Source of the DNA: Candidatus Nitrosopumilus sp.
Lineage (GTDB): Archaea > Thermoproteota > Nitrososphaeria > Nitrososphaerales > Nitrosopumilaceae
NCBI GenBank assembly: GCA_030637455.1
Contig: DAOWGL010000184.1
Span: forward strand, 1 to 20,937
Length of the DNA stretch: 20,937 bases
Direction: 5' to 3'
The notes under the pieces are model-generated. The model made no database searches and had not been told where the DNA came from. It saw nothing but the letters and a program-made list of their open reading frames with translations. The position numbers and the translations under genes were made by a program. Positions 1,137 to 13,799 of this stretch are shown in pieces. Every line of letters begins with the position of its first letter. Position 1 is the stretch's first letter.

Positions 1137-1380
1137 ATTTTTATTAAAAAACATAATTTTCATCATCGCTTTTGATTTAAGATCAAACTCTTGATGTTTG
1201 GAATCAGAATTAGATAATCATAGTAAGACTATTCAAATCTTGACTTTGATTAATTCTAATTTGTGAATAGTTTGAATATGTCTTTGCAAGAATCCCTCTA
1301 CCAGATGTTTTTGACAGTAAGGACATCCTATTCTATTAACCATACCTATCGCCCATTTTTACGAAAATTGTAAATTAGAT

Positions 1381-1505
1381 AAAGATGATCTTGTAATCTG
1401 TAAATATTACAAAAGTTAACGAGAGAAAATAGAATTAGAATAAATATTACAGAAAAAGCAATGTTTCAGACTTTAACGAAGATTTCTTCTTGAACATCTG
1501 AAACA
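1381..1505 (+). ncRNA. Repeat unit 1: promoter-like box plus hairpin (candidate sRNA)
   Basis: The box at 1381-1413 is the most diverged of three related copies: it shares AAAGATGATC with copy 2 and ends in ATTACAAA where copies 2 and 3 end in GTTACAAA. It contains its own dyad TTGTAAT/ATTACAA. A TATA-like TTAGATAAAG straddles its left edge, so a transcript would start near the right edge of the box. 81 nt after the box start comes a 9-bp perfect inverted repeat TGTTTCAGA (1462-1470) with TCTGAAACA (1497-1505), enclosing a smaller GAAGA/TCTTC hairpin. No ORF of note is present. A structured RNA is inferred; its 3' end is unknown. Confidence 0.4.
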
Positions 1506-1566
1506 ATTAGAGTTTAAGACCACTAACGAGATGGCTATTTTGGTGACAACTCTGTTTGTGTTTTTC

Positions 1567-1580
1567 TGTAATAATATTAC
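1567..1580. repeat. GTAAT-AAT-ATTAC inverted repeat
   Basis: A perfect 5-bp inverted repeat with a 3-nt spacer lies about 16 bp upstream of box copy 2. Its half sites resemble the TTGTAAT/ATTACAA dyad inside box copy 1, so it could be a regulator-binding site for the array. In AT-rich sequence such short dyads also arise by chance. Confidence 0.25.
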
Positions 1581-1595
1581 GGCATAAAATTACTT

Positions 1596-1764
1596 AAAGA
1601 TGATCGTGAAATTTTGAAATGTTACAAAATGAACAAGTATTGTAATTGAATTAAAATTTAAAACAACGAGATACATGGAAAACACGTTAAATCAAGGACG
1701 TATTCCTAACATGATGTGTTTTCCAGACCAGTCATTCTACGACGCAGAACAACAGCTTCTCGTT
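1596..1764 (+). ncRNA. Repeat unit 2: promoter-like box plus structured segment (candidate sRNA)
   Basis: The box at 1596-1628 matches copy 3 at 30 of 33 positions, with the last 22 identical, including GTGAAATTTTGAAATGTTAC. A TATA-like CTTAAAG (1593-1599) sits about 26 nt before the GTTAC end of the box, as expected for an archaeal start site. 80 nt after the box start a perfect 10-bp inverted repeat TGGAAAACAC (1676-1685) / GTGTTTTCCA (1716-1725) is enclosed by a second 7-bp pair AACGAGA (1665-1671) / TCTCGTT (1758-1764). Two nested stems in intergenic DNA argue for a folded RNA of about 100 nt. No ORF above a few codons starts here. Confidence 0.45.
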
Positions 1765-1790
1765 ATAATCGATACATCAAAATAATATTT

Positions 1791-1913
1791 AACAATGATC
1801 ATGAAATTTTGAAATGTTACAAATCCTAATAATCAAAGAGTTTGTGTTTTAGTTCAATACTCCAAAGAACAAATCTCAAGAGGCTTGAACCTTTCTTGGG
1901 AATAAAATGAGAT
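1791..1913 (+). ncRNA. Repeat unit 3: promoter-like box plus weak inverted repeat (candidate sRNA)
   Basis: The box at 1791-1823 is nearly identical to copy 2 and is preceded by a TATA-like ATATTTAAC. 82 nt after the box start comes ATCTCA (1873-1878) paired with TGAGAT (1908-1913), with a small CAAG/CTTG hairpin inside. This stem is the weakest of the three, but its offset from the box agrees with the others (81, 80, 82). The unit ends just before the stop codon of the convergent gene at 1945. Confidence 0.35.
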
Positions 1914-1944
1914 GCAAGTCTAGAAGTAAGCTATTCTAACAAAA

Positions 1945-13715: not shown

Positions 13716-13799
13716 CGCGGGGAGAGGGATTCGAACCCACGAGTTCTTGCGAACATGAAATTAGCAATCTCACGCCCTACCAGGCTAGGCGACCCCCGC
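13716..13799 (-). tRNA. tRNA-Ser (anticodon GCT)
   Basis: On the minus strand the gene begins GCGGGGG (13799-13793) and ends TCCCCGC G (13723-13716), pairing six G-C/C-G and one G-T. The D-arm is GCCTAGCCTGGTAGGGC and the anticodon loop TTGCTAA lies between TGAGA and TTTCA. A long variable arm GTTC-GCAA-GAAC marks it as a class II tRNA, and the T-arm has loop TTCGAAT with one T-T mismatch in the stem. CCA is not encoded; no intron. A TATA-like AATTTATTTAC lies 27 nt upstream, overlapping the end of the phosphoesterase gene. Confidence 0.95.

Follow-up and report, generated by a model that had tools for sequence, protein, structure and literature searches.

The window, a 20,937-nt stretch of a Nitrosopumilus genome (contig DAOWGL010000184.1), was compared with 95 genomes of the genus, 250 of the family and 201 of the order. 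Judging from the sequence, an 808-bp gap in it probably contains three short transcription units, arrayed leftward and with one promoter type in common, with box 3 leading to a structured RNA (RNA3), box 2 to another (RNA2), and box 1 to a 36-aa zinc-finger protein. The features are listed below.

1233–1343, minus strand: C2H2-type zinc-finger ORF of 36 codons, MVNRIGCPYCQKHLVEGFLQRHIQTIHKLELIKVKI
1378–1413, minus strand: box 1, predicted zinc-finger ORF promoter; upstream element (diverged), GATCATC (1390–1384), TTTATC (1383–1378)
1443–1574, minus strand: RNA2, three-way junction with a long closing stem TATTACAGAAAAA/TTTTTCTGTAATA; fold z −6.19 (region 1440–1576); second copy in its own genome
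1501–1559, minus strand: core hairpin of RNA2, TGTCACCA ... GGTCTTAA, common to four other genomes (weak model matches read by sequence)
1593–1628, minus strand: box 2, predicted RNA2 promoter; upstream element (1628–1607), GATCATC (1605–1599), TATA-like TTTAAG (1598–1593)
1662–1767, minus strand: RNA3, three-way junction of ~106 nt; covariance model score 119.8 bits, fold z −5.05
1785–1800, minus strand: predicted core promoter of RNA3; GATCA (1800–1796) and TATA-like TTAAATAT (1792–1785)
1802–1823, minus strand: upstream element of box 3, TTTGTAACATTTCAAAATTTCA
1872–1917, plus strand: member of a dispersed ~45-nt repeat, outside the RNAs, covering the third hairpin of the preliminary description

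The preliminary description had called the gap gene-free, which the zinc-finger ORF contradicts: it has matches at E ≤ 0.01 in 21 of the 95 genus genomes, its own included, and matches Pfam zf-Di19 with an E-value of 6.4e-5, under the cut-off. The nine foreign zinc-finger genes that we read have other sequence upstream, not the box. At the far left of the window, positions 1–60 resemble by eye a tRNA 3’ end cut by the contig start, which is absent from the ARAGORN list.

The three boxes at 1381, 1596 and 1791, first noticed as 33-nt repeats, are real; within the gap, the best 33-mer self-match reaches 30 positions, whereas 300 first-order shuffles gave best self-matches that averaged 21.9 and never exceeded 24. 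As described, copies 2 and 3 are identical at 30 of 33 positions and copy 1 is looser (27/33 with copy 2, 25/33 with copy 3); with a repeat finder the family lengthens to 51 nt. The stems of 9, 10 and 6 bp reported after the boxes are also present, at 1462, 1676 and 1873, respectively, but only two of them are parts of the predicted RNAs: the first is the third helix of RNA2 and the second is the third helix of RNA3. The third stem is at the chance level, since perfect 6-bp stems of its loop range start at 2.2% of window positions and the surrounding 61 nt fold no more stably than shuffled sequence (z −0.71 for the plus strand, +0.87 for the minus strand). The dispersed repeat at this place (TTAGAGGCTTGAACCTTTYTTGGG...) occurs with up to 3 mismatches at 4 places in its own genome and 5 in G061, G013 and G118 (4 of 8 genomes searched were positive; the reversed control gave 1). 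It is also seen on own-genome contigs C80 and C186 (L031, L035, L054), and at a few loci it is preceded by a TTTTGTGTTTTAGTTCAAGACTCT-like stretch.

A DNA search of 61 genomes with positions 1300–1960 as the query matched 30, including the own genome, and for 27 of the other 29 genomes the top match fell within ~1646–1815, between boxes 2 and 3, and not over box 1 or 2. The aligned copies share a conserved leftward unit consisting of GATCATTGTTAAATAT, a gap of ~17 nt, and then the folded RNA. For the structure we aligned 34 of the 35 located RNA3 copies (A1; L016 was omitted for its many N, and the incomplete L034 had been dropped earlier), built covariance model R1 from this alignment, and then aligned 74 matches from 73 chosen sources to it (A2). 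RNA3 has three helices. P1 is AACGAG/CUCGUU in the window and RACGAG/CUCGUY in its conserved form, the P2 hairpin is capped by UCUGCGUMGUAGA, and P3 is a GGAAAACAC/GUGUUUUCC stem with the loop UCAUGUUAGG in the window and the conserved enclosed sequence UCAUGUUA; the conserved 3’ end reads CUcGUuguu. Among 71 distinct rows of the model-fitted alignment, 95.5% of the 1976 cells are paired and 15 of the 28 pairs change on both sides, in all three helices, as expected of a structured non-coding RNA with compensatory changes, and two loops are nearly invariant. None of 500 shuffles reached any of five measures, and slid structures paired only 37–56%. On a MAFFT alignment not fitted to the model, 96.6% of cells are paired with 10 of 28 pairs two-sided, and 3 of 500 shuffles reached one of the five measures. 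No conserved reading frame was found in RNA3, the best frame being open in just 14 of 74 rows. At least six T within 12 nt past the model end occur in just 25 of 71 loci. In L097, the 3’ flank holds TGTAACGAGA, which resembles a second RNA3 5’ end.

In 69 of 71 loci a TATA-like TTAAAT or TTCAAAT lies 24–26 nt upstream of the RNA3 model start, the distance being exactly 25 nt in 65, and GATCA stands ahead of this hexamer in 62 of the 71, with variable sequence farther upstream; this table covers 71 of the 74 A2 rows, the remainder being repeats or incomplete. In archaeal BRE/TATA promoters that have an upstream regulator site, the upstream element stands directly before the BRE and TATA, and the transcript begins ~25 nt on. 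Read on the minus strand, the box would be such a promoter, with an upstream element of ~20 bp that is a probable regulator site, GATCAT where the TFB-recognition element would sit, and, ~25 nt ahead of the transcript, a TATA-like sequence. Box 3, as first seen from the plus strand, is then the predicted RNA3 promoter viewed from behind, and boxes 3, 2 and 1 would drive RNA3, RNA2 and the zinc-finger protein, respectively.

The box consensus on the minus strand consists of the upstream element TTTGTAACATTTyCAAATTTCA, then GATCAT, then a TATA-like sequence, from which box 1 differs at 6 of 39 positions. Searched in the 95 genomes with up to 2 mismatches allowed, a 20-mer of the upstream element was found at 27 places, spread over 15 genomes (reversed control, 2). 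The GATCAT-like core continues 16 of the 27 places (15 GATCAT, 1 GGTCAT), and the 11 box-like places without it may be chance. Seven of the 16 box sites with the core are in the own genome and nine in seven other genomes. All nine foreign boxes head ORFs, which start 20–39 nt past the TATA in seven cases and at 73 and 75 nt in the others, although taking the longest ORF within a 135-nt range favours finding one. Several of these ORFs open, by eye, with a signal or membrane segment, one encodes a small cysteine-rich protein and one a ParB-like protein (ParB_N, E 2.7e-21); two more of the proteins have no Pfam match. In the own genome, boxes head RNA3 (C93, C115, C211), RNA2 (C93, C186), and a 38-aa cysteine-rich ORF and an 89-aa ORF (C115), and a diverged form heads the zinc-finger ORF. 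The C115 locus (L032, boxes at 2463, 2858 and 3051) is a second array in the order box, RNA3, box, 38-aa ORF, box, 89-aa ORF. Its first two boxes are separated by 193 nt, compared with 195 nt in the window, and its 38-aa ORF has a weak, sub-threshold DnaJ zinc-domain match. We also asked whether GATCAT with TATA might serve the genus as a general promoter. The 19-mer occurs at up to 3 mismatches at 36 places in four genomes, some of them box sites, against 17 in the reversed control, and GATCATNNTTAA shows no enrichment in the window, where its count of 9 matches was reached by 17 of 100 shuffles; the combination therefore looks special rather than general, with a weak wider use possible.

RNA2 has a second copy in its own genome on C186 (92%), and the DNA search of 61 genomes yielded no further copies. 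When a model was built from the two copies and run on the 95 genomes, five foreign matches appeared, all weak at 31–37 bits; since it scores 32.9 bits on its own antisense, these scores alone prove nothing. Four of the five, however, carry TGTCACCA...GGTCTTAA in a hairpin with an outer stem that varies by compensatory changes. The match in G070 (L220) was judged to be chance from its sequence and left out of the alignment (A4), and a looser text match in L185, within a gene that we take to be dehydrogenase-like, was also regarded as chance and dropped. In the hairpin, 94.4% of 72 cells are paired and 4 of 12 pairs are two-sided among six sequences from five genomes. Its covariation score was reached by none of 500 shuffles, its two-sided pair count by 37, and its count of further pair types by 475. 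On reading, the closing stem and the third helix are not visibly common to the four foreign sequences. RNA2 would thus contain the core hairpin of a second RNA family. The possibility that RNA2 is a diverged RNA3, or that the RNAs are paralogous as had been suggested, is not supported, as the RNA3 model, run with filters off, gives the RNA2 region no more than 3.0 bits, and the two RNAs show no detectable kinship.

The preliminary description had read the locus in the opposite direction, as paralogous small RNAs that start at the box ends on the plus strand (1407, 1622 and 1816), share a promoter or regulator, and finish in a hairpin ~80 nt on. The shared promoter-like sequence and the presence of more than one structured RNA survive from this proposal, as do the box and stem positions, but the units comprise two RNAs and a protein gene rather than three hairpin RNAs. 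In favour of this reading, the plus strand also folds well (z −4.77 for the RNA2 region, −4.84 for the RNA3 region). Two observations point to the minus strand: the TATA-like sequence keeps its fixed spacing on the minus side, and the RNA3 helices, paired in 95.5% of cells on that strand, drop to 84.1% on the other because 248 cells are G-U. Nor is the ~80-nt spacing general. A stem of at least 6 bp lies 79–83 nt off, on the plus strand as first read, at only 4 of 16 boxes outside the window, and 2 of those 4 stems belong to a neighbouring RNA3 copy in an array; moreover, the boxes elsewhere head ORFs in the opposite direction. It is the tandem order of the units that places hairpins 1 and 2 at ~80 nt from boxes 1 and 2; each real hairpin sits in the transcription unit of the next box, not in that of the box before it. 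We consider plus-strand transcripts extremely improbable. Structure, strand and distribution of the minus-strand units are supported through comparison, and their transcription would follow from the predicted promoters.

RNA3 was detected by R1 in 67 of the 95 genus genomes, with 91 copies; 50 of the 67 have a single copy and 17 have two to four, numbers that are rough because many genomes are fragmented. Of the 56 genus genomes with completeness of 90% or more and contamination of 5% or less, 45 have it. It is missing by R1 from 28 of the 95, including 11 of these 56. Genus genomes at least 95% complete and without a match are G118, G096, G082, G081, G092 and G009, in which RNA3 is either lost or too diverged. 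Across the 201 order genomes R1 matched 25, in two genera of one family. The wider model R2, searched in Nitrosopumilaceae genomes, matched 89 of 250 at E ≤ 0.01 in 6 of 22 genera, a count that includes four borderline genomes, to which we give no weight (E 1e-4 to 0.01; g25 and g32 have borderline matches alone). An exact-pattern scan gave 33 stretches in records titled Nitrosopumilus, Nitrosomarinus, Nitrosopumilaceae, Nitrosopumilales, Thaumarchaeota or uncultured archaeon. RNA3 probably belongs to an undescribed Nitrosopumilaceae family of ~106-nt, stand-alone three-way-junction RNAs. The stand-alone character is indicated by at least three different gene settings among 12 loci viewed, and RNA3 appears from sequence alone to have a promoter that does not depend on adjacent genes. 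Where RNA3 was read in other genomes, differing upstream sequence precedes the same core promoter, and the upstream element of box 3 is replaced by different sequence at the other listed RNA3 loci except the own-genome copy L032. In the own genome, three of five RNA3 copies and both RNA2 copies stand behind the box element, and the RNA3 copies on C101 and C186 are without it.

That the RNAs fall outside the known structured classes, as first stated, holds for Rfam: release 15 matched the whole window once, at a tRNA (13716–13799), and no family reached its gathering threshold on RNA2 or RNA3. Within 1100–2000 at E ≤ 5, only two snoRNA matches appeared, far sub-threshold and without overlap with either RNA, and the loci of five relatives had no match. 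Like archaeal C/D and H/ACA guide RNAs, RNA3 and RNA2 are small, structured and archaeal, but they match no Rfam guide family. C/D guides carry a C box (RUGAUGA) and a D box (CUGA), and H/ACA guides have ACA near the 3’ end. C/D boxes are absent among the conserved RNA3 positions, and so is a 3’ ACA, none being shared in the next 25 nt beyond the 3’ end as taken from the model. With trans-encoded archaeal sRNAs RNA3 shares an intergenic location, its own TATA-type promoter and a non-coding nature; unlike them, it is a conserved three-way-junction family having no Rfam model or known target. The box likewise has the layout of archaeal BRE/TATA promoters with an upstream regulator site and differs in that GATCAT and TTTGTAACATTTyCAAATTTCA form one unit before both small-RNA and protein genes. 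Titles and abstract openings in the literature searched contain no description of RNA3 or of this unit, and RNA3 does not appear in the portions seen of PMC5069720 and PMC2864571. Five exact-pattern scans of IMG/VR viral contigs for RNA3, the box and the RNA2 hairpin, which diverged copies can escape, gave no match, and phage records gave none.

RNA3 could also be a miniature, moving element that carries a promoter, as its ends are inverted repeats (AACGAG/CTCGTT), its copy number varies up to four per genome, its gene neighbourhoods vary, and several similar copies lie in the own genome. This is very unlikely, because 50 of the 67 positive genomes are single-copy, both sides of pairs change in all three helices while the loops stay nearly invariant, and the sequence conserved beyond the upstream end is a promoter. 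A riboswitch or leader of a downstream gene would be equally structured with conserved loops, and in the window another unit does come after both RNA3 and RNA2; but RNA3 begins at its own predicted promoter, the next gene is convergent in L058 and L060, and the unit that follows in the window stands behind a separate box, making a cis-acting role very unlikely. A different question is how a stand-alone RNA3 would act. In 12 genomes, a 10-mer complement of the P3 loop was counted 67 times, some occurrences being the RNA gene itself, and the reversed control 35 times; this search with one loop complement found no clear base-pairing target. With the same genes and promoters, RNA3 may conceivably act by binding a protein, as a decoy or scaffold, and not by base pairing; the compact junction with two nearly invariant loops, the fact that 17 of the 67 positive genomes have more than one copy, and the lack of clear complementary targets are consistent with this mode, which we regard as a credible minority option.

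Taken from their sequences, RNA3 and RNA2 are most likely stand-alone, trans-acting small RNAs put under a common regulated promoter. There is perhaps an even chance that they are trans-acting regulators working via their conserved loops, GCGUMGU and UCAUGUUA, through base pairing or protein binding. Because RNA3 is single-copy in most positive genus genomes and the model detects it readily, its expression can be checked in existing transcriptomes, and the shared box provides a concrete gene set for finding the regulator. Relatives of Nitrosopumilus rank among the most abundant marine cells. Somewhat tentatively, we suggest that these marine ammonia-oxidising archaea may possess at least two undescribed families of structured RNAs, which can undergo duplication and come, along with tiny genes for zinc-finger and secreted proteins, under one shared regulated promoter, and that such RNA/protein cassettes could constitute an accessory regulon.
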